In this document: in pieces, positions 1,291-35,976 of the stretch | How positions within the stretch are numbered: the stretch's first letter is position 1 | Layout: each line of letters begins with the position of its first letter | IMG/VR virus record: IMGVR_UViG_3300045993_000018 | Span: 1 to 47,818 of that record | Direction: 5' to 3' (one strand) | Length of the DNA stretch: 47,818 nucleotides | From: a virus | The notes under the pieces: model-generated | Seen by the model: the letters and a program-made list of their open reading frames with translations, nothing else | What the model was told of the DNA's origin: nothing | The model's database searches: none | Program-made: the position numbers and the translations under genes

Positions 1291-4200
1291 TCAGTAGGCG
1301 CTAGCCGCCATACTCTCGCGTTTCTTCTCCAGCACAGTTCTGAACCGTTCCGCAAGCGCAGCCCTACGCCGCAGTATGGCATCTATCTGTTCCTGCTTGA
1401 CGTCCGGGTCCATGTTCGGCTTATTACGGATTACCTGTTCCTTCAGAGACAGCTCACTGAGGGGCTTTTTGAAGTCCGCTGCCACCGATGCTGCCGCCAT
1501 CTCGAACCTGTGATCGTTAATATACGCTCTCGCCTCCGTCCCACGTCCGGAGTTTTCCATCTTGTCTACGGTACTCTTGATCTCCATTGCCTTGTTCTCG
1601 ATCTCGTAGAGGTGGTCCATGTCGTCCGTGCCAACTGCCTTCTGGAAGAAGCGGCTCATCGGACCAGCAGACAGGTGCTTGGTGGGTTTCTTCACATCCG
1701 CAGGTAGCGTGGACACCATGTCGTCGGCCATCTTGGCAAGCATCAATGGCATCTGCCCGAAGTATGACTGCGCCAGATAGTCGCACTGCACCGGGGAGAG
1801 GCGTATGCCTGCGTCCACCAGCCGCTTGCTGAACTGTTTGCATATCTCGCTGGTGTTGGCGGAGTAGCGCTGCTCGGGCGACAGCCGCTGCATGGCGGCA
1901 GACTCGATGGGAGCGCCCATCGACATATCGTAGTTGGCGATAACGGACGACGTACCCTTGAGTATCTGTGCATCGAAATTAGGCACAAACTCCGACGCGA
2001 ACAAACCTGCTACGGTTTTGAAATCTTCTCTGGAAAACTCTTTCTTCCAGTTCTCCACCAGCGCGATCGGCAGCGAATAGAACATGACACCGGGCTGGAA
2101 TGGGATGCCGATCTTGACCTTCTCTCCGTTCCACGTACCGAGCGGCAAGTGGAAGTATTCCATCTTATCGCGCAGAGACATCTGCTTCCACTCGTCGTCG
2201 TCCTCCATCATCAGCGCGTAGGTAACCGCGAAGCCGCCCATCGCTATCGCACGCTGCGCCAGCATCGTCCTGCTCTTGAGCAGATCGTTGGCCGTCATGT
2301 CGCCCTTCATGGCGTGTATGAAGTTGTTTATGCCAGTCATACTGGAGTGGAAGAACGGCACCATCTGACCGACAAAGCGCACCGCAGGATCAGCACCCTT
2401 GGCCCCGAAGTCCATCGACTGCGCCGCCTTGTATACCGCTTCCAGATCAGACCCACCGCTCTTCTTCACATCCTGCAGGATCTGCGCACGAGTAGCACCT
2501 TCGGCTGCGGTAGCCGTGGTATCCATAATCACCTTGAACTTGTCCCAGCCAGACTCACCCTTGCCCGCAGTCATCTGCAGCATGATCTTGTGCATGTCGC
2601 CTGCGTCACTGATGACGTTGCTGCTCGTGGCGCTGCCATACTTCTGCATCATGTGGTGCTCGGGGCTTGTGTTGGCATAGCCCTTCATCAACTGGATGGC
2701 AGACTTGTACGCTGCGCCTACCGGATTGGTCTTGACGCTGCCCAGCATGGAGGCGTTCATCGCGTCTTTCAGCGTCTGGCTTATCACGTACGATGGCATG
2801 CGTGTAACACCCGAGCGCAGCAGCCCGTTTATGGAGCTGGCGATCTTCAGCAGCGGGGAGTTGATCTGGTGGATGCCTGCCAGCGAGCGCACCAGCAAGT
2901 CCGTGGGGATCCCTTCTGCCGAAGTGCCCTTGGTGTCGATGACGATGTAGCGGTCGCCTTTGTCGTCTGGGCGCGTAGGATCAGGCTTCTGTGTGAAGCG
3001 AACCACATCTGCACCAGCGCCACCAGTACCGCGCTTGATCTGCATGACTCCGGCGTCCTTGCCGATCGACTGCAGGTGGTACGCAGTCTGCGTGCTGGCG
3101 TGATTACGCAGGGCCAGCCCCGTAAGGACGGACGTGTTGCGTATGATGGCTTCTTCCAACGGCATCAGCTTGTCCGAGCCACCCGCCAGCTCATGCAGCC
3201 ACGGCTGCTTGCGTATATCCCCGATGACCCTTGGGCCTCCGTTGAGCCCGAGCAGTTGCAGCGAGTCACCGTTGACGCGGTACATAGGGATGTAGTTCTT
3301 CAGCTTGCGCATATCCGCGATAACGTCTGGCGGCAGAGAATGTGTCTCAGCTACCAGATCAACCAGTGCCCGGTTCATCCCCTGATACACCTTGTTGGCT
3401 TCCTCGAACGCATGTTTAACTTCGGGGTGCGCGTCGATGTACTGTTTGTTTGCAGCGTATTCTTGGCGCAGCTTGGCAGGATCTTTGAAGTCGAGCTTGT
3501 CCCAGCCAACCTGCTCAGCGTGCAGGCCCATCACTAGACTCTGGAAACCGTCCATGTTGTTCTTGGAACTGCCGAGGTTCAGCTTGCTTATCTTCTCTGC
3601 GAGTTCCGAAAACGCCGGGCCGTGGCCGGGAGCCAGCACCTTGTTGCCGAGGTCATCCTTGATGAAGCCGTATGCGCCATCACTGATACTGGAGTGCACC
3701 ACGTTCATCAGGTGCGCAGCTTGGTACTGCGCGTATGCGGCGTAGACGCCAGAGTTTTTGAAGTCGCCGTGCTGCTCCAGCACCTTGTACACGCTGGCGA
3801 GGTGGTTGAACATCGCTTGCTCAGTAGCTAGCCACCGCGCACCCTTGGCGTTCTTGAACTTCTCCAGCTTGCTGCTCCGATCCACGAAGCTGTTCTGCAG
3901 CGGGGACTCCTTAGTGCTGCCCCACATCCGCAGCTTGGCTACGTCCGTGCCACCGCCGCTACCTTCCGGGGCTTTCATAAACTTCTCTGACAGCTCCAGC
4001 ATCCGATCGAGCATGGTGCCGTTCGGCGGCGTCTTGATACCCAGCAGATTGAAAATAGCTCGCTTGAACCCCTGCCACATGGTCAGCTTCGGTTGCCACT
4101 CGGCTTTTCCCATCAACTCCTGCACAGGACGACTGGAGTGCCCTTCGGCTACAAACTCGTGGAGATCGCCCTCATTGATAACGGCGTTGTCGAACCCGGG

Positions 4201-7200
4201 CAGTTCCTTGACGGCAGCATGCAGCGCTTCCAGCTCGCGCTTGGCCGCTAGCTGATCTTTGGTCAACTGATCTTCCGGCTTACTCAGCTCGTGCATGGTA
4301 GCGGCGTGCACATTCTCATGCAGCACGCTTTCCTCAGACAGCCCGGTTTCGCGATTGAGCGAAACTGTCTTGCCGTCTTTGGAGATACCACCGGGGGCGT
4401 CGGGGTAGTCACCGGGCATCTCGTCCACCAGCCGCGTCTTGACGTCGCCAAGCAGTCCTTCGATACGCGCAGCCACACGGCGTGCGATCGGGTTGGAGCT
4501 GTTCTCTGCGATGTCGGCTACGACGCTGCGCGTGTCGCCCTTGTTGAGCGAGCTGATATTCTTGACCGACAGCGGTGTGTCGTTCGCACCGGAAGTTCCC
4601 CGGAAGCGTTGGGGGTCGTCGTTCTCGGCCTGCGCGGAGGTGTCTGCCTGTTTCGTGCCCTCGACTAGCGCCTTGTCAGCAGCTTTCGCTGCGGCCTTCG
4701 CCTGCTCCAGTAGCGCGGTGACGTTCTTCTTCGCGTTCTCTGATGCGTTGGGGGCCTTCATCACGATGTCATAGCGGTTCTGCGCTTCGCCCCGCGCCTT
4801 CTGCGCTGCGTCTGCCTCGCGCTCAAGCTGCGCCTGCTCCATCGTGTGCCGCAGGGCCATGCCCTTGCCCGTGTCTTTGTTGGCCTCCGTGACTACCTGT
4901 TTGAACGAAGGCTCGTCAGGCGCTGCTTTTCTTTCTTTGGCGGGGTTGCCCGTACCGCTCTTGTTCTCGCGGTTCTTGCTTTCCTGCGTCCCTGTGCGTG
5001 GATCACCTGCGGTGCGTTTGTTGCGCGTAACCTGCTCACGCACGCCTTCGCTTGGCTGTGTGCTTACGAGGCGCTGCAGTGTGGGTTTGCGCCCTGTCTT
5101 GAGTTCTTCGATCTTGTCTTCGAGGAACCGGATGCGGTCCTGCAATGGGATCAGCCGATTCTTGGTGTGGGTGTTCACCGTCGCATCTGCGATCCCTCTG
5201 GAGAATGTAGACTGCTTCGAGATACCGCTGAACGCTTTGGATACGGCTACGGAGGCTTTGGATATTTTGCGCTCACCCGACTTCGCATCCTGATGCGCTT
5301 CCATGATCCCTTCGAACTGCGAGCGCAAGCTGCCCACTTCCTTACTCAGCTCGCCGATCAGCTGGTGTACCTGCCTGCGCCCCTGCACAGAGTCGCGATC
5401 GCCTATCGCTTCTTCGCGCGCTGCTACACGCTCCTTGGTAGCTGTCAGTGCGGGATCTTCTGCTGTACTCTCTGGGCCCTTGGCTACGCCCGACTCCAGC
5501 TCCTGCGTCATGCGCTCGAAACCCTTGTCCACCGTCGTAGTATCTTCCGCCGTCTCACGGGATGGTGTACGGTTTTCGTTGTCTTTCGGTAGCGGCTTGA
5601 CTACCTCTTTCACAGGCTTTTCTTTAGCCTTCATCAGCTCTTTCGCCATCTCAAGCTGCTGGCGCTCAAGGTACATCAAGTGGTCGTGCAGCGTTGCGCG
5701 GCTGTCCACGGCATCGCGATAAGCGTTGCGTGCGCGGATGTAGGCATCCCGCAATGTAGCCCGCTCAGACAGATCGGAGTTCTCGAACACCTGCCGCTGT
5801 GCGTCGTGCATCTTGTTGTACGCATCATCGACTTGCTTGTCAGCCTTGGCTTCCTCGGTGCGCTGGTGCTCCAGCGACTTAAACAGGGCAGCGCGTATCG
5901 CTGGCGCAGACTGCTCCCGATCGCTCAAACCCAGCCGGCGCATCGTCTCCAGCTTGGACTCGCCTTGGTCAGACAGACGTTTGATGGCATCGTTGCGTGC
6001 CTTGTACAGCCGGTCTAGTTGGGCATTGATGTCGTCCAGCATCACCTGATGCCCGCGCTGCGCCGCCTTGAGATTCTCCAAACTCTCGACAAGACGCCCA
6101 CGCACTTCCGGATCGGGAGCGGTGTCGCGTTCGGGTTCGAGTTTGCTCTGGCGTTCAGCAAGCTCGCCTAGGCGTTTGGCGAAGAACCCGGCCTTCTCTT
6201 CCCGCAGACGGGTGAGGCGGGCTATCTGTTCTTCCAGCACCGGGGTGCGTTTCTCTACCGCCCTGTTGGCTTCCAGTTGCTTGTCGAGGGTGCCGAGCAC
6301 CGTATCGCGTTGCGTCTTTGTGCGTGCCGTCTCCGCAGCCAAGTGCCGCAGCTCGGCGACTGTCATCGCCTTGTCCGCTACGCGCTGACCACCTTCGACG
6401 TCTGTGCCCGGGATGTCGCTGGAGAGCAGGGCGTTGGAGTCGATCAGTGTCTGCACCTTATCCTGCGCATCCATGAACGTGTGCATGTTCTCTTGCAGCA
6501 GGCCGGTAAGCTTTTCTTCCAGCGCATCCAGCCCCTCGATGTGCCTCTGCAGGGTGGCTGCATCGACGCGATCGTCGTTCACATCGAACTGATAGATTTC
6601 GCGAGTCTCTTTCATGTCTTCTGCGACACGATCGTGGCTCAGCTTCACATCACGCGTTTGCTGATGTATCCGGTCCAGTAGCGGCAGTGTCTTGCCCTCG
6701 CGCGCGGCCTGCTCATTCTCGAACAGCATCTTGCGGGTATCTTCCGCACGCTGCACATTCGTCTGCGCTTCCGCGATTTTGGACGATGCCTGCAACTGCT
6801 CGATACGCACGTTCTGCTCCGCGCGGCCGACGTTTTCTTTTGCTGTTTTGACGTTGTTCTGTTCAGCCGACACGGGCGTAGCCGCCACCGCATCCTCGAT
6901 CTTGGTACGCAAGTCTGTCAGCGTCTGCATCGCGGACTCGGCCTCATGGCGGAGGATCTCAGCACGGACATTAGCCTGCGATACGGTACCGTGCGCGGCC
7001 TCGATAGTCTTGATAGCAGACTGTGCTTTCTCTGCAAGTGTCTGCTGCTTGGCCGCTACGTCCTGCAGCAGTGCCTCGTGTGCATTTGCCAGTCGCTGCG
7101 CTTCGCCGACAATGCCGTGCGCTACGCGCAGTTGCAGTACGTTGCTGACAAGCTGTCCAACACGCGGCCCCATGAGCTGCGTAACCTTGGGCACTTCCTT

Positions 7201-10200
7201 GCCCAGCACGTCCACCAGCGTCTTGGCTGCTTCCCCGGGGTGTGCCGACAGGCGGGTACCGATATGCAGCATGCGCTTTTCGATCTCGGCAGCTTGCAGC
7301 TTCGCGGGGGAGCGCGACAGCACATCTTTAAGCGCCTTCTCAGCCTCGGCCAGCTCTACGCCGACGTTCTGGTGCTTGTACATGTACTCCATGAACTCGG
7401 GCGTGAGATCACCGGAGCGCTGGATGCGCAGCCATTCTTTCTTGAACTCTCCCAGCGCGTCTGCGGCCTGCTTCTTCGCCGTCTCAACCGCTTCGCGCGC
7501 GTATGTCGCGCGGAGCTGGGCTTCCTTGATCTGCGAGTCCGCAGTCCGCGTAGTGACCTTCGCCACTTCCTGTGCGGTGTCGAGCCGGTGCTGTGCGCGT
7601 TCTGCCGCCCGCTGGGTCTGCAGCTCCTGCCCTTGCAGTATGCGGGCGGGTGCCAGTTCGGGGCTACTCCGCATAGCCTTTTTCAGCTTGGCCTCGGCCA
7701 GCAGCAACGTAGACTGCGCATCGCCCAAGGCTTTCTTGGCGGTATCGACAGCGGCCACGGTCTTGTCTAGCCCAGCGCGGGCCTGCACAACCATGTTGTT
7801 GGCGGGGGAGTCTGCGCCGAACACCTCGTCCCAGATGCCCATCGTGTGCTGATCTTCGGGAGACAGTCCACGCATCTCGTGGCGGAACGACGCATCATCG
7901 GGGCCGGCGCGCTCAACACCAAGGACATCCCTGCCACCGCGCTCGACGCGCGTAGTGCCCTGCCCAGCGTTGGGTTGCTCGGCATTGATGCGCTCCTTTG
8001 GAGATTCACCACCTTCCCAGCGCTTCGTTGTGGTGGGCTCCTGATTGACGTGCATGACCTCGTTGCCTGACAGGAACGGGTGGGACGGCTTTGCGCCCGT
8101 ACGCGCGGCTTCTTCCGCGTTGCCCTGCTCCATCTTGGACTTCTTGGCCCACTCTTCGTTCAGGTGCGTCTGCAGCGTTGTCAGATCCTCCTCGGAGGCG
8201 TTATCAAGCTGCCATTTAGATAGCACGTCTCCCGCGCGGGGGGCTGCGCCTTCGATCCACTTCTTCGAGTTGTCGGTCTGCTTCTCGGTTACTGGCTCGC
8301 CCCCGGCGACTGCTTGCTGGAGTGGCTTGTCATACGTAAGCGTGTCTGTCTTGCGTCCGGTGCTCACCAGTTGCGACATCTGGGTCGCGAGATCCTTCCC
8401 ACGCTGTACCGACGCCTCGTAGGCTTTGCGCTGCATGGGCTGCTGCTCGAATGGCGCGGACTCCAAGTCCTTGCGCATCTGTAGCTGGTCGGTATTGTTC
8501 TGGTCGATGCGATCGCGTAGTGTCTGTATCTGCGAGTCCATCTCGCTGCGAACCATCGGACGCACAACACCCTGCCCTTCGCCACGGTAGGCGATACGGT
8601 TCACGTTGTCTTTGATGTCCTCCAAGGCATTCTGTGCACGCTGGTTGTTGGGGTCGGCCATCGCCGGGTGCTCCAGCGCCTTTGCGTAGTTATCGAGCTG
8701 CGTCTTGGTGGCGTCAGGCAGGTTGGGGCGAAGCGTGAGCTGCTGTATCTGCGTGCGCAGCGTATTGATAGGGTTGTTCTTATCGGGTAGATTGCTCTCG
8801 ATACCCGGGCGATCCGGGTACATGTCGCTTGTGTACGTGTCCTTATTTCCGGGTTGCAGAACATCCCCGAACAGCCCTTGCTGCTCCTGCTCCGTAGTGC
8901 CCGGGCGGTTGCGAACCTGAAATGTGCGCTTGTACTCATCAGAGCCTATGCCTGTCCGCAGGGCATCAGAGTCCGCCATGAACTGCGACATGGGGTTGTG
9001 CGGTTGATCGCCAACCGTCTGATCCTGCATATCCTGCTGGCGCTTTGCCAGCTCGGCTTCGTTCGCCTTGGCGGCGTCCAACTGCTGCCTGAGATTCTGC
9101 AACTCTTGCAGGTGGGCGTTGGCCGACGCCATGTCGTTCATGCGCAGCGCTTGTGCGTACTTGCTCTGCAGCGATGTCACTCGCTTCTCAAGCTCGCTGG
9201 CGGGCATGTCCCGGGGCACGGGAGCCTTCGGAGTCTGTAGCCGCTGCAAAGCAGCAAGGCGCTGCGCGTGTTGTGTCACTTCAGCTTGTGCTGCGGTAGC
9301 GGTATCAAAGTCTCCCGACTGTGCGGCCTTTGCTGCCCGATTGATAGCATCCGTATGCGCTGCCCGTGTCGTAGCCAGTGCATCGTCAAGCGCATTCTGG
9401 TTAGCGTTAAATTCTGTAGGTGGCTGCTCGGCAGGCGGTTGGGGTACCCGATCGGCCTTGACCAGATCCATGTACGGTGCAGCCAGCTCATCGCGCTGAT
9501 TCTTCAGATCAGCCAGCCGCTCTTCGTTCTCCTTGTAGCGCAGTTGGTCTGCTGCATACGTAGGCGAGGCTGCGTCCGGTTTGGTATGGGCATCCTTGGC
9601 CTGCTGGTACGCCTTCTCGGCGGCGAGGTAGTCGTTTGTTACCTGCTGCGCGTACTCCGGGGAAGCCAGATGCTGCTGTTGCTGCTGGTCCGCCTTGTCC
9701 TTGATGTCCTGTGCAGCTTTCGCAGCGGCCTTATCCTGCTCTGCTTTCGCAGCAGCTTTCGCCGGGGCACCCATCGCCATGTGCGCACCACGGATGAACG
9801 GGAACGCCGCAGCACTGACTGCCGCATCTTCTGCGGAGGGGAGCCATGAGGACTCGTCCTTCTGCCCAGCCACCTCGTTGATGCCCTTGTGCAGCGCTGT
9901 GTCTGCAGCGGTGAAGCCCACACCTTCGGCAGCGGATAGCCCCAACTGCGTCATCGCACCTTCGCCCCCGCCGACCAGTTTGTTGAGCGCCTTGGAACCC
10001 TTGGACGCCACGCCCGGCATGAACATGTTGACACCGCCAGCCAGCGCGGCGTGGGCTGCAGCTAGCCCGTCGCTCATACCCTCTTTCTTCTTCTCGTCGT
10101 AGGTATCCCTGACTGCGGGGAAAGCAAACAGCCCCGCAGTCATCACCATATTCGGAATAGCCGCTTCGGGGAACAACAGCGCTGGCGCGATGGAACCTAC

Positions 10201-10512
10201 AGTACTGGCTACCTTGCCCGTGAACGTGTCGCCGCCGTACTGCTTCTGCTTCTCTTTCCAGTAGTCCCGGCTGGCATCCAGCGACTGCGAAACGTCATCA
10301 GCACCTACCATACTGGCAAGCGTAGCCCCTGCTCCAGCCACCGTACCCGCCGCTCCACCGACTAGGTTCATGCCTATGGTGGACGCCATCCCGGGCTTGG
10401 GTGCAAACTGTGGGTACGCTGTCAGTATCCTAGAACGTACCTCGTCCTTCGGCATGTCGTCTGGTATATCGGCGACTACTGTTCCATCGGGTAGCTGCAC
10501 ATCATATGGCAT
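1291..10512 (-). CDS. Giant polyvalent virion (ejection) protein with zincin motif and LPD38-like C-terminus
   Basis: This 3073-residue protein is the last and largest late gene. Residues 1-40 form a short domain (MPYDVQLPDGTVV...) that I associate with phage internal virion proteins. Residues 41-75, 105-137 and 155-171 are Gly/Ala-rich and hydrophobic. About 250-1950 is Ala/Gln/Glu/Lys-rich and heptad-like, a very long coiled coil. A zincin motif HENVH lies at 2065-2069, with a downstream HEFVAE whose E2123 could be the third zinc ligand. About 2690-2940 (PFF near 2715, PEQRY near 2880, SPVQ-DYL near 2910) matches large polyvalent protein-associated domain 38 as I remember it. Such proteins are packaged in the capsid and injected with the DNA; the metalloprotease could act in the host or on virion precursors (inference). 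The gene starts 10 bases after the upstream stop, with only a weak GTAGAAAG ribosome site. Confidence 0.75.
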   Translation of the reverse strand: MPYDVQLPDGTVVADIPDDMPKDEVRSRILTAYPQFAPKPGMASTIGMNLVGGAAGTVAGAGATLASMVGADDVSQSLDASRDYWKEKQKQYGGDTFTGKVASTVGSIAPALLFPEAAIPNMVMTAGLFAFPAVRDTYDEKKKEGMSDGLAAAHAALAGGVNMFMPGVASKGSKALNKLVGGGEGAMTQLGLSAAEGVGFTAADTALHKGINEVAGQKDESSWLPSAEDAAVSAAAFPFIRGAHMAMGAPAKAAAKAEQDKAAAKAAQDIKDKADQQQQQHLASPEYAQQVTNDYLAAEKAYQQAKDAHTKPDAASPTYAADQLRYKENEERLADLKNQRDELAAPYMDLVKADRVPQPPAEQPPTEFNANQNALDDALATTRAAHTDAINRAAKAAQSGDFDTATAAQAEVTQHAQRLAALQRLQTPKAPVPRDMPASELEKRVTSLQSKYAQALRMNDMASANAHLQELQNLRQQLDAAKANEAELAKRQQDMQDQTVGDQPHNPMSQFMADSDALRTGIGSDEYKRTFQVRNRPGTTEQEQQGLFGDVLQPGNKDTYTSDMYPDRPGIESNLPDKNNPINTLRTQIQQLTLRPNLPDATKTQLDNYAKALEHPAMADPNNQRAQNALEDIKDNVNRIAYRGEGQGVVRPMVRSEMDSQIQTLRDRIDQNNTDQLQMRKDLESAPFEQQPMQRKAYEASVQRGKDLATQMSQLVSTGRKTDTLTYDKPLQQAVAGGEPVTEKQTDNSKKWIEGAAPRAGDVLSKWQLDNASEEDLTTLQTHLNEEWAKKSKMEQGNAEEAARTGAKPSHPFLSGNEVMHVNQEPTTTKRWEGGESPKERINAEQPNAGQGTTRVERGGRDVLGVERAGPDDASFRHEMRGLSPEDQHTMGIWDEVFGADSPANNMVVQARAGLDKTVAAVDTAKKALGDAQSTLLLAEAKLKKAMRSSPELAPARILQGQELQTQRAAERAQHRLDTAQEVAKVTTRTADSQIKEAQLRATYAREAVETAKKQAADALGEFKKEWLRIQRSGDLTPEFMEYMYKHQNVGVELAEAEKALKDVLSRSPAKLQAAEIEKRMLHIGTRLSAHPGEAAKTLVDVLGKEVPKVTQLMGPRVGQLVSNVLQLRVAHGIVGEAQRLANAHEALLQDVAAKQQTLAEKAQSAIKTIEAAHGTVSQANVRAEILRHEAESAMQTLTDLRTKIEDAVAATPVSAEQNNVKTAKENVGRAEQNVRIEQLQASSKIAEAQTNVQRAEDTRKMLFENEQAAREGKTLPLLDRIHQQTRDVKLSHDRVAEDMKETREIYQFDVNDDRVDAATLQRHIEGLDALEEKLTGLLQENMHTFMDAQDKVQTLIDSNALLSSDIPGTDVEGGQRVADKAMTVAELRHLAAETARTKTQRDTVLGTLDKQLEANRAVEKRTPVLEEQIARLTRLREEKAGFFAKRLGELAERQSKLEPERDTAPDPEVRGRLVESLENLKAAQRGHQVMLDDINAQLDRLYKARNDAIKRLSDQGESKLETMRRLGLSDREQSAPAIRAALFKSLEHQRTEEAKADKQVDDAYNKMHDAQRQVFENSDLSERATLRDAYIRARNAYRDAVDSRATLHDHLMYLERQQLEMAKELMKAKEKPVKEVVKPLPKDNENRTPSRETAEDTTTVDKGFERMTQELESGVAKGPESTAEDPALTATKERVAAREEAIGDRDSVQGRRQVHQLIGELSKEVGSLRSQFEGIMEAHQDAKSGERKISKASVAVSKAFSGISKQSTFSRGIADATVNTHTKNRLIPLQDRIRFLEDKIEELKTGRKPTLQRLVSTQPSEGVREQVTRNKRTAGDPRTGTQESKNRENKSGTGNPAKERKAAPDEPSFKQVVTEANKDTGKGMALRHTMEQAQLEREADAAQKARGEAQNRYDIVMKAPNASENAKKNVTALLEQAKAAAKAADKALVEGTKQADTSAQAENDDPQRFRGTSGANDTPLSVKNISSLNKGDTRSVVADIAENSSNPIARRVAARIEGLLGDVKTRLVDEMPGDYPDAPGGISKDGKTVSLNRETGLSEESVLHENVHAATMHELSKPEDQLTKDQLAAKRELEALHAAVKELPGFDNAVINEGDLHEFVAEGHSSRPVQELMGKAEWQPKLTMWQGFKRAIFNLLGIKTPPNGTMLDRMLELSEKFMKAPEGSGGGTDVAKLRMWGSTKESPLQNSFVDRSSKLEKFKNAKGARWLATEQAMFNHLASVYKVLEQHGDFKNSGVYAAYAQYQAAHLMNVVHSSISDGAYGFIKDDLGNKVLAPGHGPAFSELAEKISKLNLGSSKNNMDGFQSLVMGLHAEQVGWDKLDFKDPAKLRQEYAANKQYIDAHPEVKHAFEEANKVYQGMNRALVDLVAETHSLPPDVIADMRKLKNYIPMYRVNGDSLQLLGLNGGPRVIGDIRKQPWLHELAGGSDKLMPLEEAIIRNTSVLTGLALRNHASTQTAYHLQSIGKDAGVMQIKRGTGGAGADVVRFTQKPDPTRPDDKGDRYIVIDTKGTSAEGIPTDLLVRSLAGIHQINSPLLKIASSINGLLRSGVTRMPSYVISQTLKDAMNASMLGSVKTNPVGAAYKSAIQLMKGYANTSPEHHMMQKYGSATSSNVISDAGDMHKIMLQMTAGKGESGWDKFKVIMDTTATAAEGATRAQILQDVKKSGGSDLEAVYKAAQSMDFGAKGADPAVRFVGQMVPFFHSSMTGINNFIHAMKGDMTANDLLKSRTMLAQRAIAMGGFAVTYALMMEDDDEWKQMSLRDKMEYFHLPLGTWNGEKVKIGIPFQPGVMFYSLPIALVENWKKEFSREDFKTVAGLFASEFVPNFDAQILKGTSSVIANYDMSMGAPIESAAMQRLSPEQRYSANTSEICKQFSKRLVDAGIRLSPVQCDYLAQSYFGQMPLMLAKMADDMVSTLPADVKKPTKHLSAGPMSRFFQKAVGTDDMDHLYEIENKAMEIKSTVDKMENSGRGTEARAYINDHRFEMAAASVAADFKKPLSELSLKEQVIRNKPNMDPDVKQEQIDAILRRRAALAERFRTVLEKKRESMAASAY

Positions 10513-10522
10513 AGCGTACTTT

Positions 10523-12541
10523 CTACTTTGGCAGACTGCTAAAAGAAACTCTTTGGTTTTGCGATGCGGGGGCAGGTGCCGTTATACCCGCTAAACCTTT
10601 CAGTTTAGGGTTCTGTGCGATGAATGCAGATATCTCTGCAAAACGCTGTTTTGCGGTTGCGTATGCAGCCTTGGCTTCGTCTGTAGGCACTTGATTCTTG
10701 GAGAAGTCCTCAATAATACGCCCGTAAACCTGCATCTCTGTAGTGAGTTCCTTGCTTGCCGCCTGCATTTGTGCTATATCGTTGCGTTGCTCGCCCAGAT
10801 GGTACTGGTTCATGCTGGCCTTGTAGCCCATGTCTGCGCCGTAGCGGCTGGCGGATGCGGCCGAGTTGTACCCGTACAACTGCGAACCGGATTTCGCTGC
10901 CTCTTCGGCCGACTTCAGTGCGCCCGTATACCCGGACTGCCCTGCGTCAAACAGCTTGGTCTGATCGGCACGCATGCCCGTGTCCACGCCCTGCTGCGCG
11001 GTGATGATCGGCACGGTAGCTGCAGCACGTTCCTTGGCTGCGTTCCGGTTGTATGCATTCATACGCTCCATACCGCTGCCTATAGCCGCCAGCCCGTTCT
11101 CTCCGGGGCGCGGTACGTGCGCGCCCACGTTGCGTGCGAAGTCCGCGAAGCGTGAGAAAGGATCGGCCTGCTCGCCTTGATTTACGTTCTGATCCCGCTG
11201 CGCCTTCAGATACGCAATGTTTGCTTTCTGCTCGTTGAATGTCTGCGCTGGCAGCATCTTATTGGCGTACCTCTCCGCTTCGGTACGTTGCGCAGTGGGG
11301 TAACCTTCGGCAGTCACACGGTCGATGTACCCCGTAAGGCCACTCGGAATATCGGGTTGCGTGTTGGTGCTTTGCGGCGCTGGCGCTGCAGGTTTAAGCC
11401 CGCCCTGCTCCATAAGGGCCATTACGTTGGCCCGGTCTGTTGGGTCTGGTATCTTAGACGCGGTATCCCACAAGGTATCCGTAGGCGTGAAGTTCCCCGT
11501 AATGGGTTGTTTAGGATCAATCGGCGGCGTGGTTCCGTTGGGGTCTGGCGCGGGGGCGCTAGCTGCATTGGAATCTGCAGCGCGAGAGTACCGCGTGGGA
11601 TACGCATTGGGATCAGCCGCAGGAGCAGCAGGGCTCGGTGCAGGAGATGGGGCTGCGGAAGCCGCGAGCGCAGGCAGTCCGACAGGCGTAGCCAAGCTGT
11701 GCCGCTCTTCACGCCCTCTGTTGCTTGTCTGTGTTCCGATACCAAACGTATTCTTGAACTTATCTACGATCTGCTGCGAGGATGCCGGAGGGTTATCTTC
11801 TCGTGCTTGGCGCATTGCCTGCTGCCGCGCAGCCTCTTTCATGTCCTTGTCAAGCTGTATCCGATTCGCCAGCGCATCCCGCTGCGCATGTTTTTCGGCA
11901 CGTTCCTCAGTAGTATCTGTGCTCTTATCCACGAGGGCGGGATCTATCTCTGGAAACCAAGAAGATCCACTAGGAACAGCACCGTCACTTGCAAACCCCA
12001 GAATCCCACCCTTGGCGAACCCTTGGATGTTGGAGCGTGCCTGCATCAGCCCACCGCGTGCGGCCATTTGAGGCGGCTGTGCCTGCGGATCGGGCTGCGG
12101 GGGATTACCCGGAGGCCCCATAGGGGGTTGCTGCTGCGCCATCCCCACCTGCGCCATCTGCATCTGCACCATGTCGCCCTGCCCTACCTGCTTGGCAAGT
12201 TCTGCCTGCTTACGCGCTTCTTCCTGCTGCGCCATCTGCGCAATTTGCTGGTGCATCTTTTCCACTACGGTCAGTGGCTTCTGCGTTTGCGGATTCTGAG
12301 GAAGCGACAACTGCTGCTGTATCGCCATCGCCCGCTGTGATGCTTGCTGTGCCTCCAACTGCGCGGCTACAACCAACTGCTGCTTCAGGTCCGGAGGTAC
12401 GTTGTTAATGCCTCCCTGCGGAGGTGCGCCGGCCGCACCGGGGGGAGGCGCTTGCGGCGGTCCCGCCATCGGGGCAGGGTTACCCATGAGTGCTGCGATA
12501 CCTTGGGATGCCTGTGGCGCTTGAGTGGCTTGCATGGTCAT
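10523..12541 (-). CDS. Pro/Gln/Ala-rich probable internal virion protein (672 aa)
   Basis: No enzymatic domain is recognised. Residues 1-60 are Pro/Ala/Gly-rich; about 55-150 is Gln/Met-rich and helical; near 158-185 there are two Ala-x-Gly-Gly elements (MAARGGLMQ and GFAKGGILGF). A Pro/Ala/Thr-rich linker follows at about 285-390, then a helical, Ala/Gln-rich C-terminal half. This composition and the position between the 667-residue protein and the 3073-residue giant suggest a member of a three-protein ejection (internal core) complex. AGGA lies just before ATG 12541; an in-frame ATG two codons on is the alternative start. The Ala-x-Gly-Gly element recurs in two other proteins of this window. 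Confidence 0.65.
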   Translation of the reverse strand: MTMQATQAPQASQGIAALMGNPAPMAGPPQAPPPGAAGAPPQGGINNVPPDLKQQLVVAAQLEAQQASQRAMAIQQQLSLPQNPQTQKPLTVVEKMHQQIAQMAQQEEARKQAELAKQVGQGDMVQMQMAQVGMAQQQPPMGPPGNPPQPDPQAQPPQMAARGGLMQARSNIQGFAKGGILGFASDGAVPSGSSWFPEIDPALVDKSTDTTEERAEKHAQRDALANRIQLDKDMKEAARQQAMRQAREDNPPASSQQIVDKFKNTFGIGTQTSNRGREERHSLATPVGLPALAASAAPSPAPSPAAPAADPNAYPTRYSRAADSNAASAPAPDPNGTTPPIDPKQPITGNFTPTDTLWDTASKIPDPTDRANVMALMEQGGLKPAAPAPQSTNTQPDIPSGLTGYIDRVTAEGYPTAQRTEAERYANKMLPAQTFNEQKANIAYLKAQRDQNVNQGEQADPFSRFADFARNVGAHVPRPGENGLAAIGSGMERMNAYNRNAAKERAAATVPIITAQQGVDTGMRADQTKLFDAGQSGYTGALKSAEEAAKSGSQLYGYNSAASASRYGADMGYKASMNQYHLGEQRNDIAQMQAASKELTTEMQVYGRIIEDFSKNQVPTDEAKAAYATAKQRFAEISAFIAQNPKLKGLAGITAPAPASQNQRVSFSSLPK

Positions 12542-12556
12542 AGTCCTAAATCAGAA

Positions 12557-14560
12557 TCAAGGTGTAGTGCCCGTGCCGGTTGTAGTGCCGGTAGTTGCTG
12601 CCGCTGTCTGCGGTGTGTATAGGCCGAGTTTAGTCAGCAGATCAATGGCGCTACCTGCGCCTGATATACCGGCCTGCACCCCACTAGGCTGCGTAACAGA
12701 ATAGCTCTGCGCTGCGAGCGGGAGCCCTTGCAGCAGCGACTGCTGGTACTGCACCATCTTGTACGGGTTATCGCGCTCAGCATTGAACGCTGCCTGCTGT
12801 GCGTTGAGCGAATCGGACTCGATACCGCGCTGGGTAGCCCCCTGCGCAGCCTGCGCATTCATATTGCCAAGGTCGATGTTGTTCTGCATCTGTCCGATAC
12901 CTGCCGCCGTCTGTGCCGCCGTCGCACCTGCAGTGGAAGCGTTAAGCCCATACTGTGCCCCGAACTGCGCGTTCTGCATATTGGACTGGCTGGCCTGCAA
13001 CTGGCGCTGCTGATCTGCATTGAACTGTTGCTGCGCGTTCTGGTAGGCAGTGTCATAGCCCTTGCCTGTTATATTGGCTAGGTTATCCCCGAGGTTGCGC
13101 TGTGTTTCCGTGTTCATCAGCGCCTGACGGCTGCCGCCGAAGGCCCCCGCCTGCGTAGCCTTGGCATCGTTCCCGGTCTGTGTAATCTGCGATTGCCTCC
13201 GGGCTTCCGCGATCTGCGGATTCAGCGACTGCTGCAGGTACGGATTCATGTACTGTTGTGCCTGCGCGGAACCAAAAATACCCGTATTTACGTTGGTCCC
13301 TGCAGTGTCGTACCCCGTAGCAGCCGCGGTATTCAGCGCACTCGATGCATTATTCGCGTTGGTTGCGGCCGTACCTATCGAGGACGGTGTAGTGAGGCTC
13401 GACGCAGAGTTGAATGCCTGATCCTGTAGCGGCGAGGAGCCAGCGGTCAACTGCCCCTGATACGCTTGGTAGGGCTGGTTAGCCAGCGCAGCGCCTTGGC
13501 CCAGCATGTTGGTGACGTATGGCCCGGCCCAGTTGGATAGGTTGGACTCCGTACCAGTGGTACCTGCAGGCACCGTAGAGCCCGTGGTACCGTCGAAGCC
13601 AATAACCCCGCCCTCTGCATACTTGGAAGCGGCCAAGCCACCCGTGAATTTGGCAGGGTTGATCTCCTTGCCTTGCTTCTTGGTGCCGGTACGCGCCTTG
13701 CGCACACGATCCATCATGGAGTACAGGTGCTGCGCGCCTGCGTCGGAGTTGCCGTTACCAAGGTGGCTGACTACGTCTGCCGGAACTACAAACTCACCGT
13801 GCGACAGCTTCGCCGGCCGCTGCCCGTCGATGGATGCCGGGAGCTTGTCCGCCATACCATCGGTACTTCCTTGGAGATAGCGCGGGTGCCCCGCCTGCCC
13901 GCCTGCGGCGAGCCCCATCAGCCCACCGTGCGCTGCCTGCACCGTGTTGGTAGTATTGTTGGTACCTGTGCCTACCGTATTCGCCGCAGTTTGTGCGGCA
14001 GCGGCCTGTGCAGCAGCAACAGCGGGGTTATTCAGTGCGGCAGCTTGGTTTGTCGCAGCCGTCTGTGCGGCAGCTAACGCAGGCGCATCTCCAGCCTTGG
14101 TGTACTGCGTATCCGTGAAATAACGCTGGCCCATAGCAGGAGCGCCATAGGCGTGAGGCGTCGGTTGGGAGGCGGGAGGAGCTGCCTGCTGGCGTGTGGC
14201 TACGAGACTGGGGATGCCGCCCTGATACCCGGTAGGGGTAGCGGGCTTGTTGTTCAGCATGCCGTAGAGTGATCCCGCAGCCGCGCCGCCCGCACCGAGG
14301 GCTTTGTTCCAGTCGATAGACCCATCGGGTTTACTGAAAGTAGCCTTCAGCAGATTCTTCGCGTCTTGGCCCAGTGTTTCATACCACGCGGGTAGTGTTC
14401 TATTAACCGTAGCATCTGCGCCAGCATTGGGATCTGCTGTGTTTGGCGCGTTTGGGTCCGCGACAAACACAGGAGGGGTTGTTGGAATCCCGTTGTCGTC
14501 CAGATATTCCCATGTAGGATCCTCGCCGGGGCCGTTGGAGTACCAGTCGTATCCAGCCAT
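12557..14560 (-). CDS. Ala/Gln-rich probable internal virion protein (667 aa)
   Basis: The N-terminus is acidic and Trp/Tyr-rich (WYSNGPGEDPTWEYLDDNG), followed by an Ala-rich stretch (about 155-205) and an AAHGGLMGLAAGG segment near 208. A compact central part (about 235-300) contains KLSHGEFVVPADVVSHLGNG and a basic DRVRKARTGTKKQGK stretch, and ends in YAEGGVIGFDG. The second half is Gln/Asn/Ala-rich and predicted helical (RRQSQITQTGNDAKATQAGA, then many Gln/Asn). I recognise the KLSHGEFVVPADVV region as recurring in environmental phage virion proteins but know no biochemical role. A strong ribosome site (TTAGGAG) precedes ATG 14560. Its place in the run of large late proteins suggests a capsid-internal protein ejected with DNA, or a tail protein. 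Confidence 0.65.
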   Translation of the reverse strand: MAGYDWYSNGPGEDPTWEYLDDNGIPTTPPVFVADPNAPNTADPNAGADATVNRTLPAWYETLGQDAKNLLKATFSKPDGSIDWNKALGAGGAAAGSLYGMLNNKPATPTGYQGGIPSLVATRQQAAPPASQPTPHAYGAPAMGQRYFTDTQYTKAGDAPALAAAQTAATNQAAALNNPAVAAAQAAAAQTAANTVGTGTNNTTNTVQAAHGGLMGLAAGGQAGHPRYLQGSTDGMADKLPASIDGQRPAKLSHGEFVVPADVVSHLGNGNSDAGAQHLYSMMDRVRKARTGTKKQGKEINPAKFTGGLAASKYAEGGVIGFDGTTGSTVPAGTTGTESNLSNWAGPYVTNMLGQGAALANQPYQAYQGQLTAGSSPLQDQAFNSASSLTTPSSIGTAATNANNASSALNTAAATGYDTAGTNVNTGIFGSAQAQQYMNPYLQQSLNPQIAEARRQSQITQTGNDAKATQAGAFGGSRQALMNTETQRNLGDNLANITGKGYDTAYQNAQQQFNADQQRQLQASQSNMQNAQFGAQYGLNASTAGATAAQTAAGIGQMQNNIDLGNMNAQAAQGATQRGIESDSLNAQQAAFNAERDNPYKMVQYQQSLLQGLPLAAQSYSVTQPSGVQAGISGAGSAIDLLTKLGLYTPQTAAATTGTTTGTGTTP

Positions 14561-18850: not shown

Positions 18851-19477
18851 CTATGCTCCCCAGTATGTAAGCTCTAACTGCTTACGTGCAACTATAGCGG
18901 CTTCTAGTGTGTCACACACCCTAGAATAGTATTTCTTGCGTTTTACCGTGACTTCCGCGAGCCACTTTTTATTTCTAAAATGTACCCCGGTTACACCCGA
19001 TTTAGAGGATGGCCGTATACGTACATTTCTAGTTTGCACAGTAGGACTGGCCCACCTACAGTTTTCCTTGGTGTAATTACCATAGGTATCAATTCGATCT
19101 AACGTCTGTACGCCGCACGGCTCTCCCATATCGGCAACAAAAGCAGTGTAGTCATGCCACGCCAAACATACGGTAACGCCGAGTGCCCCATATTTAGGGT
19201 AGTCCTTATCCTTGGGGTTAGTACACCTGCGCATAACGGCTCTCCATGTGTTATACGATCCTTTCCCCGTACCGCCGTGCGTAGTTATCTTTTCTTTCAG
19301 GTAGCAGCCGCAGGACTGTGTATTGCCTGTTGACAAGCTACAACTATCAACTTTGGCGGATCGCCCGCAGTCACACAAACACTCCCAAAGCGTTTTCTTG
19401 CTGGCTGTGATTCCGGCTCTAGAAAGCACTACTAGCCTTCCATAGCGTAGCCCCGTCTTATCAATAAACTTAGGCAT
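18851..19477 (-). CDS. HNH homing endonuclease with AP2-type DNA-binding domain
   Basis: 208 residues starting at ATG 19477, chosen because ACAGGAG lies 6 bases upstream; an open frame extends further 5' without a better site. A Cys-rich zinc-binding N-terminus (C33, C35, C37, C46, C56, C58) is followed by an HNH-like core (HGG...YNTW...MRRC...YGALGV-V-C-W-F...LDRID-GNY-EN-RWA, about 67-143). A C-terminal AP2-like domain (about 159-200, SGVTGVHFRNKKWLAEV) would contact DNA. Enzymes of this type make site-specific breaks and spread as freestanding homing genes. It sits between the gp10-like tail gene and a small structural gene with which it shares no function, consistent with later insertion. 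It has its own promoter. Confidence 0.85.
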   Translation of the reverse strand: MPKFIDKTGLRYGRLVVLSRAGITASKKTLWECLCDCGRSAKVDSCSLSTGNTQSCGCYLKEKITTHGGTGKGSYNTWRAVMRRCTNPKDKDYPKYGALGVTVCLAWHDYTAFVADMGEPCGVQTLDRIDTYGNYTKENCRWASPTVQTRNVRIRPSSKSGVTGVHFRNKKWLAEVTVKRKKYYSRVCDTLEAAIVARKQLELTYWGA

Positions 19478-19499
19478 TGTCGCTCCTGTAAAAGCGCTT

Positions 19500-19529
19500 A
19501 GTGTACGTTGTATGCAGTGCATAAGTCAA
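19500..19529 (-). promoter_or_regulatory. Sigma70-type promoter of the HNH/AP2 gene
   Basis: On the minus strand TTGACT (19524-19529), an 18-base spacer and TACACT (19500-19505) form a promoter 20-50 bases before the HNH start. The -35 overlaps the stop codon of the upstream tail gene. Inside the spacer is a palindrome TATGCA-C-TGCATA (19511-19523), operator-like in placement. Confidence 0.55.
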
Positions 19530-24163: not shown

Positions 24164-27100
24164 TTATGTGCTTACATCAGTCCACATAGATGGCTGATTA
24201 TCGTTTACATCTACCCATCCAGCAATAGCATCCGGGTTAATTGGCGTCCACGGGCCTGCCTGCGTGGTGTTGATATCTGCCCACAGGGACACGAAATCCG
24301 GGGCTTCGTGGATATCAGCAGTACAGATTGCCAGAGAGCGGACATTACACACCGAGCCGCACACATCAGGTGCCTCGTAGATAAAGGCGTTCATCACCGG
24401 GATGATGATGACGAAGACGGTGGCTGCTACGGTGTCCGGGGCGTCTTGGATGGCTGCGGAGGCAGCTTCGGAGATCCCGGCTACCCCGCCTGAGACTGAT
24501 GCAGACCCAGTGTACGCCGTGGAGAATGCCACCGTAGGTGCGGTGAAGGTGGATGTGTATCGGGCTACACCCTTAGTAACACGGATTTCGTCTGTGTAGC
24601 CGTAGCCGCTGTTATACTGCCACCTCACATAATCGCCTGCGATAAGGGACGCGAATGCTGCGGAGACAGTTTGGGGTGTTCCCGCCACCCCGTTAAAGTA
24701 GGTCTTAAGCGTAGTTGCTCCGTCATAGACTACTGCGTAGTGGCACCATCCTCCGGCAGCAGTAAGGACTACAGAAGAGAACTCATTAGCGGTGCGAGCT
24801 ACGTTACTCTTGGATACCAGCAAGTCTGCGCCGGAGTTATTACGCAGGATACTGAGCGGGAGGTACGTAGCTCCGCCCTCGCCTATAGCTAGTACGCCTT
24901 GGAAGGATGCCCCTCCAATATTCAGCATGTTATGCCAGAACTCAATGGTGAACGCAGATGTGCCGAAGTTAAACTCGCCATTTAAATCTGCAAAAGCAAG
25001 CTGCACCATAGGCCCGCCACCGCTCATGCCAAACCCTGCAGACCAGCCGCCGAATTTAGAATCTACCGTGGTTACGGTAGCCGAAAGTATCGGTATCCCC
25101 TTCAAGCTACTGTCAAACGCAGTGCCGCCGTCTAAGTGACTCAGAAATACAACTTGCGGGAAATACGTATCTGTATACGCAGCCATTGCCTCTGGGAACG
25201 CAGCAGTAGCTGGCGTGAAGGCAGTGGTGTAGCGGCAGTAGTCCTTCGTGATGCGAATATCGTCAAGGTATCCGTTGAGCGGATAGGCAGCCAGTGAGTT
25301 AGCCCCAATACAAGTAAGTCCACTCCCGAGGAAAAAGGACTCGGCGTTAGTAGCAGTTCCAACCGCCGCTCCATTGAGCCAAAAATATACCGTGCTGGGA
25401 ATCTGCCGACATACAGCTATGTGATACCACTGCCCGGTAGACACTGCGATAGCGGATGAGTCTAAGGGGCTAGTCCATGCTGCCCCGCTGGTGGAAGTCT
25501 GTAAACGTAGGGTATATACCCCAGCAGTGTTAAATAACTGAACTGATATTTCCGCATTAGAACTAGCGGTGGCTCCACGATGGAAGAACACGGCTCCCAC
25601 GGCATCCCCCGGAAGGGCATTAAAGTACACCCAGCACTCTACTGTGAAGTTCCTATTCTTGAACTGGAACGCTGCATTACTGGGAACTGTTATGTAGTCC
25701 GTAGTGCCGTTCAGAAGCAAGGATGCTGTTCCAAACTTCACCTGCGCTGTACTCAACTTGGCCCCAGAAACTGCGGTAACCGTCTTCGGTGTTGGACTAC
25801 TATCGGTGATAGTCGTGCTCAGGTTCGATCCGTCGCAGTGTAGGAGAAGTCCTACGTTTGTCCATGCCGGATCGTAGTAGGCGATGGTGGATAGGGTGTC
25901 TGCGGCCTCAGTTATTGCAGCGGTGCAAGTGACTACGTTGGCTACGGTTGCATAGCCACTTCTATACGCGAATGCTGCCGTTGGCGGAGTGAAGTTGCTG
26001 GTATAGCGAACCGTATTGGAGATGCGGAACTCGTCTATCCGAGCTTGCTGTAGCGTAGCTACGTCTGTGGCAACAGAACCGGCTAGGGCTATTTGCGTAG
26101 ACGCGACATCTAGCGTGCCTGTGCCAGAGGCACTATTCACCCCATCTACATACAGAATGAATGAGGTACCTGATTTAGTAATTGCTATATGGTGCCACGT
26201 ATCTAGCGTAACTGGAGAAGAGTTTATACTAACTACCCCCCCAATCGCAGATAGACCTATCTGGTATAGATTATTTATCTGACAGAAAAAAGCACCTGTG
26301 GTACCCCAGTTAAACAGCGCTCTATAAGAATCTCCAGAAGCCTGCGGGTATAGCCAGAACTCCACAGTAAAATCTGCTGCGTGAACCGCATACGCTGCAT
26401 TCGTACTAATGAGCGCTCCCAGTGTTACACGAGCATTTAGCTTCCATGCTGCGGTGCCAAACTTGACGATATCTGTTGCTAGATTAGGAGCGCTATTAAA
26501 GGAAGTAGAAACCCACGTAATACCAGATACAGCGTCAGTATAGGTAGTGCTTCCATTAGCCCCATCAAAATGCAGGAGAGACAGCGTGTTGCTGTCGTTG
26601 GGCATAGTATCCGCAGCTTCCGTGATGTTCGCATCAGCGAAGCAGTAGGGGTAGCCTGTTATGGATGCTGTCCCTGCGGAGGCGACGAAGGTATCTGTAG
26701 GAAGCGTGAAGTTTCCGACATACCGGGCTACGCCTTTGGTTACACGGAGATCGTCTATATACCCTTTGAAATACGCCGGATAGAGCGGAGCAAAGTAGTT
26801 GAAGCCAATATACACCGAAGCGGTTGTGTCGGGTATAGCGATGGTTACTGTGGTCGTACTGACCATCGCTCCGTTCTTAAATACATAGACTGTATTTCCA
26901 GACCGCGTCACTGCTACGTGATACCACGTATTTAGACTAAACGAAGTTGCCGCAGAGCAGTCGGATACGGCTCCGCCTGCATCAAACAGATAGACGGCAA
27001 GCGCATCAAACGAGGATGCAGTGCCATCCAAACATACACGAAACTCGCGGCTACCAGACACTTCTTTAGTTATAAGCGCGCATTGATATACGCCACTATG

Positions 27101-34977: not shown

Positions 34978-35976
34978 CTAGGGCATGGGCCAACTACGCA
35001 CTTGCGCGTATATCTGCCCTACGTTTGCGTTATCCAAAAGCTCTGCTGATGCGGTACAGAACACTGTCTTCGTTCCTGCGCCAAAATTTACAAGACTGTT
35101 ATTGTTGCTGCTAGACCTAACAATCTCGCGTGTAAGCGTCTGTGGGATGGTAACCGCGTCTGGGGCTGCTGTAGTAGGAACAGAGTATGCAAGCGTGTGC
35201 CTGCATACGTTCTGAGTAATACGGAAGTCATCAATGTACCCTGTCCATACCCCTGATGCAGGAGATAGCGTACAAACCGCTCCGGTGGTATAGCTAGATG
35301 CCACTGCACCTGACGCAATCAACGCACCATTGAGGAAAATATACATCGTCGTGCCCTGCCGCCCTACCTCAATGTAGTTCCACTGCGAGGTTGGTATTGC
35401 AGTGGAAGATGTTAAGTCCCACGCTAACCCCTGTCTCGCTACTCCAAGACTTCCAGCGTTCTGCCCAATCTGCAGACCGCCAGAGGATAGGTTGGCAAAC
35501 AACTGAGCGCCAGCGGCAATGGTCGCTGCATAGCACCAGAAGTCCACCGTGAAGTCACCGGCAAACGCCATGTCTGCCGCGTTAGGCCACTGTAGTCCAT
35601 TCCCCACAGAGTTCATGAACATAGACGTAGTTCCGAACTTTACCTGTGTACTGGACGTTGTGACTCCGGCAGTGGGAGTGCAGGTACGGGCTATCGTGGA
35701 TGAGTCGGTGAATGTAGTACCTCCGTTGGTGCCGTCGCCGTGCAGCAGTACCTTGACATTAGACCAGTAGGGATCCCCAACAGAATTAAAGTACCCCTTA
35801 CCGACTTCCCAATTACCTGCTCCGTCATCAATACAGTACCCAACCATAGATACAGTTGACGCGCCGAAACCTGTTGCAAAAGACTGGTACCCTGTAGGAG
35901 GACTGCTGGCTAAAGTTATAGCCGTAGTCCCTGTACTGGTGGTCGTGTCCTTTACTCTGTCTGCAATGTATGGCAT
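34978..35976 (-). CDS. Tail protein with an inserted LamG domain (332 aa)
   Basis: The first 60 residues (ADRVKDTTTSTGTTAITLAS...GYCIDDGAGNWEVGKGYF) and the last 60 (PQTLTREIVRSSSNNNSLVN-FGAGTKTVFCTASAELLDN) are two halves of a compact tail module that is normally continuous in phages. Between them, at about 65-275, lies one LamG domain (DPYWSNVKVLLHGDGTNGGT-TFTDSS ... YIDDFRITQNVCRHT) closely like those of the 1650-residue protein. The LamG part probably binds carbohydrate; the outer module probably fixes it in the tail. The upstream stop is one base before the start. Confidence 0.75.
   Translation of the reverse strand: MPYIADRVKDTTTSTGTTAITLASSPPTGYQSFATGFGASTVSMVGYCIDDGAGNWEVGKGYFNSVGDPYWSNVKVLLHGDGTNGGTTFTDSSTIARTCTPTAGVTTSSTQVKFGTTSMFMNSVGNGLQWPNAADMAFAGDFTVDFWCYAATIAAGAQLFANLSSGGLQIGQNAGSLGVARQGLAWDLTSSTAIPTSQWNYIEVGRQGTTMYIFLNGALIASGAVASSYTTGAVCTLSPASGVWTGYIDDFRITQNVCRHTLAYSVPTTAAPDAVTIPQTLTREIVRSSSNNNSLVNFGAGTKTVFCTASAELLDNANVGQIYAQVRSWPMP

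Follow-up and report, generated by a model that had tools for sequence, protein, structure and literature searches.

A giant putative ejection protein with a zincin-type domain and an LPD38 module in a podovirus-like phage

The giant gene and its neighbours

We analysed a 47,818-base stretch of viral DNA (the window), which is an entire virus record, and found in it a single uninterrupted open reading frame of 3073 residues, with an ATG start, that runs from 10512 to 1291 on the minus strand (1291..10512). The first-pass annotation had likewise described one gene of this length and position, taking about 19% of the window; we add that its strand is minus, the same as that of the other identified genes. 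These include genes for terminase, portal, capsid, lysozyme and virion proteins, and identify the window as a tailed phage with a podovirus-type portal. The named relatives of the portal, each less than 45% identical to it, belong to Planktothrix/Synechococcus phages, Pelagibacter phages HTVC023P and HTVC027P, Roseobacter phages CRP-901 and CRP-902, and Caulobacter RW-type phages. A scan of genome contigs gave four weak matches and no host assignment. The features of the giant protein and its two neighbours are collected in Table 1.

Table 1. Features of the giant protein and of the two genes upstream of it
Feature	Residues	Position in window	Strand	Basis
N-terminal tag (MPYDVQLPDGTVVADIP...)	1-37	10402..10512	minus	Common to the N-termini of many related giants
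Ala/Gly-rich hydrophobic N-terminal domain, candidate membrane-active region	~43-230	9823..10386	minus	
Charged, Ala/Gln-rich, probably helical linker	~250-1980	4573..9765	minus	Composition; heptad test; no match in other giants
Zincin domain	1988-2185	3958..4551	minus	PDB profile matches; AlphaFold of the isolated domain (topology, pLDDT 87.5); 60-sequence alignment
HENVH, predicted two His ligands and general-base Glu	2065-2069	4306..4320	minus	
E2119, most likely third metal ligand (candidate)	2119	4156..4158	minus	Conservation in close and solved relatives
E2123, ligand proposed by the first-pass annotation; more likely a second-shell residue	2123	4144..4146	minus	Not kept in solved relatives
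Conserved C-terminal module	2358-3044	1381..3441	minus	tblastn and BLAST to phage giants; AlphaFold; BFVD matches
LPD38 (PF18857)	2772-2945	1678..2199	minus	Pfam E=2e-23
672-aa gene, putative second ejection protein		10523..12541	minus	Position between the 12557 gene and the giant
667-aa gene, putative first ejection protein		12557..14560	minus	Weak match to PHROG 4287 'DNA ejection protein'

The giant is the last and largest of three clustered putative ejection genes, although we infer the ejection role of the upstream pair as well; the 672-aa product gave no family match. Among the 81 loci with enough upstream DNA to be testable, 46 have a homolog of the 12557 gene that ends 1.5-2.7 kb, approximately one gene, upstream of the giant's gene; in the other 35 it was not found. 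The gene order in the window parallels that of gp52-gp51-gp50 in N4, and T7 has a parallel order in gp14-gp15-gp16 (PMC8954989). Moreover, purified virions of phage JC1 yielded 51 unique peptides of gp69, an LPD38 giant with the same gene order (PMC9144972).

Several other features of the window are recorded here as observations. Within the 12557-14560 product, an island of about 79 residues (227-305) is 72-78% identical to distant phage contigs, and its flanks diverge. A 1650-aa protein (24164-29116) has six Laminin_G_3 (lectin-like) repeats, and the product of a separate gene (34978-35976) matches the same families once. An HNH-endonuclease-like gene (18851-19522) lies amid the virion structural genes, and a plus-strand open frame of 373 aa (2-1123), opposite to the identified genes, runs off the start of the window. 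We also noted that three differently named cyanophages (OQ594354, OL906435 and PP438419), each 65014 long, gave identical match scores and are probably one virus deposited three times.

The zincin domain and its predicted metal ligands

The HENVH motif lies at exactly the residues at which the first-pass annotation had placed a zincin metalloprotease site. Profile searches matched solved ejection proteins and AlphaFold gave a confident model, both of which support a zincin-type domain. Relatives of residues 1988-2195 with the pattern LHExVHAAT are common, with 267 confirmed among viral contigs. A profile of nine sequences matched four kinds of solved virion protein in the PDB: 9sfn (E=3.8e-23), a phiKMV-type internal virion protein that corresponds to gp37 in LKD16 by tblastn; 23sg (2e-10), whose gp10 is a Klebsiella phage internal core protein by tblastn; 8vb2 (7e-10), the tetrameric ejection protein gp48 of PhiM1 (PMC11440229); and the N4 virion RNA polymerase entries (3e-6 to 6e-5). 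Comparison with the MPTase region of N4 gp50 by hhalign gave E=1e-8, indicating homology to a zincin-like MPTase, and an HExxH motif has been noted in domain C1 of that protein (PMC12633501). The predicted topology (two helices, three strands, the HExxH helix, a further helix and the Glu helix) agrees with the description of the zincin-like MPTase by Iyer et al. (PMC5512222), in that the HExxH helix follows a three-stranded sheet and the Glu lies in a later helix. A Foldseek search of the PDB with the isolated domain, which is a small query, was not significant (PhiM1 8vb2 at E=1.2); thus, the family assignment relies on sequence profiles and topology. Pfam did not recognise the zincin of the window, and its best match among members was SprT-like (4e-4, in two members).

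The first-pass annotation had proposed E2123, at the end of an HEFVAE stretch, as the third metal ligand. We confirmed HEFVAE at residues 2118-2123, but the conservation pattern points to a different residue within it. Of the 60 close relatives in the alignment, 59 have E at residue 2119 and one has D; 54 have E at residue 2123. E2119 lay outside the search pattern used to collect these relatives, whereas H2065, E2066 and H2069, which are invariant in all 60, are so partly because the pattern contained them. The equivalent of E2119 is E in all four solved kinds (N4, PhiM1, phiKMV-type and Klebsiella), while that of E2123 is W, W, G or Q; likewise, a Limnohabitans and two Vibrio phage proteins have E at 2119 and another residue at 2123. 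Thus, because E2119 is kept in distant relatives and E2123 is not, the third ligand is probably E2119. On the predicted helix that carries both residues they are separated by one turn, and E2123 may therefore belong to the second shell.

We considered that the domain might not be a peptidase, but rather a fold that binds metal for stability or performs other chemistry, with a scaffold role. HExxH occurs in non-peptidase enzymes too, as pointed out with the N4 structure (PMC12633501), and some relatives of the C-terminal module lack the motif. However, virtually all of the 60 relatives retain the catalytic-type E2066 and the third ligand (E2066 partly through selection by the search pattern), and we regard a non-peptidase role as unlikely. 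No HExxH activity of N4 gp50 is reported in PMC12633501, and the open-access papers searched contained no activity test of this zincin.

Among 57 non-redundant giants gathered through the C-terminal module alone, 45 have at least one HExxH, compared to a mean of 1.1 expected from shuffled sequences. HExxH is commoner than chance in this protein class, and its occurrences in the 45 giants belong to several zincin types; thus, zincins are a habitual part of the class. Two close relatives of the module (L010 and L011) lack HExxH, and the protease is thus not needed universally.

The start of the zincin precedes that of the C-terminal module by 357-447 aa in 15 non-redundant loci. One subgroup (L095, L096 and L103) has about 700 extra residues between the two; the starts lie about 1070-1170 aa apart in L095 and L096, compared to 357-447 in the others. 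The virion RNA polymerase of the N4-like Vibrio phage phi 1 (L092) has two tandem HExxH zincin-like motifs, at residues 1942 and 2177.

The N-terminus, the middle region and the C-terminal module

The N-terminal tag has invariant M1, P8 and G10 in 15 giants and is 57% identical to that of L075 over 37 aa. The hydrophobic domain that follows has three hydrophobic segments (51-69, 101-119 and 150-168). The equivalent region of relatives matches residues ~240-440 of N4 gp50, its membrane domain: 46 of 138 relatives matched at E<0.01 and 15 below 1e-4, compared to 0-9 and none, respectively, with reversed or shuffled N4 as controls. For the window's protein itself, the match of the N-terminus to the N4-related profile is weak. 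The N-terminal profile found nothing in the PDB; the link to N4 is visible just through direct comparison with relatives. Other giant lineages (L133, L145, L156 and L164) start with short motifs, e.g. FDPDAYL or NPFAKFVQ, repeated two to three times, which are perhaps packaging or ejection signals.

The middle of the protein had been described as about 1700 residues of coiled coil, possibly serving as a trans-envelope conduit. Residues 250-1990 are charged and Ala/Gln-rich, interrupted by Pro/Gly-rich linkers, and show a weak hydrophobic peak at period 3.5. However, only 20% of 28-residue windows in this region exceeded the 95th percentile of shuffles, compared to 79% for tropomyosin, used as the control. 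Heptad periodicity does not extend through most of the region, and we rejected a continuous coiled coil by this comparison; the region looks helical, but the earlier description was overstated. No part of it matched other giants at E<=1e-4, and Pfam, PHROGs and a single-sequence PDB search gave no family match there. Composition and periodicity make a long, fast-evolving and probably helical linker a better description of the middle than a coiled coil, and the region may hide undetected domains.

These results bear on the possibility that the middle forms a coiled-coil conduit across the envelope, for which the long, charged, mostly Pro/Gly-poor stretches and the period-3.5 peak could be adduced. 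We consider this very improbable, based on the heptad signal being far under that of tropomyosin, the variable length of the stretch ahead of the zincin (about 720 to 2000 aa in relatives), and the fact that in T7 and N4 it is the second ejection protein that makes the periplasmic tunnel (PMC8954989, PMC12633501), a gene at that position being present here.

In four related giants (L120, L127, L143 and L172), QGELF/QGDLF-type motifs (QxxLF, resembling sliding-clamp-binding motifs) occur three to four times in the N-terminal linker, at residues ~299-379. The narrow form was observed 20 times compared to about three expected, for a motif picked after inspection. The window has a single QQGLF (8869-8883), and we rejected a beta-clamp-type motif as the function of its linker.

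At the C-terminus, LPD38 scored 83.9 bits against a curated Pfam cut-off of 27, and was the only domain above cut-off in a Pfam scan of the giant. The first-pass annotation had assigned this domain, naming it in advance as a point on which it could be refuted, and the profile search agrees. It had also attributed LPD38 to polyvalent proteins of both phages and plasmids; the phage-type part of this statement stands, but the plasmid part is not supported (Iyer et al., PMC5512222). Its observation that a single enzyme motif is evident holds as well, since Pfam and PDB sequence searches found no second enzyme domain; PHROGs and single-sequence PDB searches with the giant gave nothing useful.

The conserved C-terminal module spans about 690 residues, far wider than LPD38, and covers 2316-3044 in closer relatives. 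With the last 1304 residues as the query, tblastn matched 18 phage records over as many as ~690 residues, including Vibrio phages D274 and 1.232.O, Achromobacter phage CF418P1, Planktothrix phage Pag-Yong1, E. coli phage PTXU04, Aeromonas phage phiARM81mr, Shewanella phage X14 and Bacillus phage Palmer. The matching gene encodes a giant (1678-3292 aa) in all eight records examined. LPD38 was present in six of six relatives scanned with Pfam, most of which add polyvalent-type domains (helicase-methyltransferase, inorganic pyrophosphatase and LPD3), with GNAT and ART domains below cut-off. A single-sequence search for related loci with the whole protein or its C-terminal third found nothing; the alignment query for the module found 488 relatives in viral contigs.

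AlphaFold, using 67 sequences, modelled residues 1988-3073 as mostly helical, with a mean pLDDT of 82.8 and a pTM of 0.69. This model had 88 structural matches in BFVD at E<=0.001, the best of which covers about the whole model. Profiles of the module found no relative, and no solved counterpart, in the PDB. Foldseek of the 1086-residue model against the PDB returned just long helical proteins (E>=0.008), which we dismissed as chance, and comparison with the C2 domain of N4 gp50, considered as a relative of the module, showed no similarity.

A proposed role in ejection and comparison with known systems

We conclude, with a probability of about 0.65, that this podovirus-like phage has the giant as its third and largest ejection protein, in the position of T7 gp16 and N4 gp50, and that the giant is a phage-type polyvalent protein with a zincin. 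That it is an ejected polyvalent protein of this type, as first proposed from inspection, is supported by the gene order, by the homology of the zincin to a domain of solved ejection proteins and by the virion mass spectrometry of JC1 gp69 (PMC9144972).

In the mechanism we propose, the giant would be packaged in the capsid with the two smaller ejection proteins, as the gene order suggests, and would exit through the tail unfolded, its extended, hydrophobic-poor middle being suited to threading. The Ala/Gly-rich N-terminal domain would dock in the inner membrane, the version in sister proteins being related to the N4 gp50 membrane domain. Once in the host, the zincin (H2065, E2066, H2069 and E2119), a fold that the profiles and model support, would refold next to the C-terminal LPD38 module, in an arrangement resembling that of C1 and C2 in N4 gp50, and would presumably hydrolyse a peptide bond. 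Its substrate, more speculatively, would most probably be its own chain or another ejection protein, a class to which we give somewhat less than even odds, and cleavage might free a cytoplasmic module, or gate or dismantle the channel.

The timing and target of such cleavage could be different. Iyer et al. proposed for DdrB of phage P1 that a precursor is cleaved before packaging (PMC5512222); if the zincin likewise cut a precursor during assembly, the fragments alone would be packaged. This would fit the requirement of the MPTase region of N4 gp50 for encapsidation, reported by the same authors. We consider it improbable, and favour action after delivery, because N4 gp50 is reported to be packaged uncleaved (cited in PMC5512222). 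Alternatively, the zincin might be a host-directed effector that cleaves a host protein in the cytoplasm (for instance a defence or regulatory factor), with the remaining chain as its delivery vehicle. Host-directed enzymes are common in polyvalent proteins (Iyer et al., PMC5512222), and the giant's relatives carry helicase-methyltransferase, pyrophosphatase and other enzymes. We think a host target rather unlikely, however, since phages that infect unrelated hosts (Pseudomonas, Klebsiella, Pectobacterium and E. coli) all retain one zincin type in their ejection proteins, which a phage-encoded substrate explains more easily; this is an argument rather than a test.

How a short-tailed phage closes or dismantles its transient envelope channel after DNA entry is an open question (PMC12633501). 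A bolder reading, which we hold only tentatively and think unlikely as a whole, is that short-tailed phages that are otherwise distant from each other (phiKMV-type, Klebsiella phages, PhiM1, N4-like and LPD38 giants) have a zincin of one clade as a common functional element of their inner-membrane ejection protein, and that this built-in protease releases, gates or dismantles the ejection channel after delivery. If true, this would explain closure of the channel. Since the protease-like domain occurs in the largest ejection protein across lineages, some structurally solved and with laboratory hosts, this answer is directly testable.

A 2017 study (Iyer et al., PMC5512222) had described zincins and LPD38 in giant polyvalent proteins of phages. 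The analysis here adds a corrected probable ligand, wider boundaries for the LPD38 module, the finding that evidence for a coiled coil is weak, and a connection between this zincin and ejection proteins from phages for which solved structures and laboratory hosts exist. The giant resembles the phage-type polyvalent proteins of Iyer et al. in its size, LPD38, zincin with HExxH and Glu helix, and phage location, but differs in that no second enzyme domain was detected, the zincin and LPD38 being the only functional domains identified in the chain, and in its very long unassigned helical middle.

The LPD38 giants of podoviruses (the 'DarB-like' Burkholderia JC1 gp69 and Bcep22 gp75, and those of Vibrio D274 and 1.232.O, Achromobacter CF418P1 and PTXU04) likewise have the C-terminal module (20-25% identity in those compared) and are the product of the last virion gene. 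Unlike the window's protein, most carry helicase-methyltransferase, pyrophosphatase, LPD3 or lytic transglycosylase domains, and HExxH is absent from the compared LPD38 giants except those of Pag-Yong1 and X14.

N4 gp50 (PDB 9pnr, 11go; PMC12633501) is similar in being a giant third ejection protein in which a large helical C-terminal domain comes after a zincin (C1), and in its N-terminal domain, which is related to that of the window protein's sister giants. In contrast, it has an RNA polymerase domain, absent here, and its C2 shows no similarity to the LPD38 module. The phiKMV-type gp37 (9sfn), Klebsiella phage gp10 (23sg) and PhiM1 gp48 (8vb2) share the zincin type, with HExxH and the equivalent of E2119, but are 1240-1340 aa long, have another C-terminal region and carry the zincin in their N-terminal third. 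Two uncultured phage contigs share both parts: L105 is 39% identical in the zincin and 35% in the module, with only about 720 aa ahead of the zincin, while L106 (38% and 31%) has nearly the layout of the window's giant.
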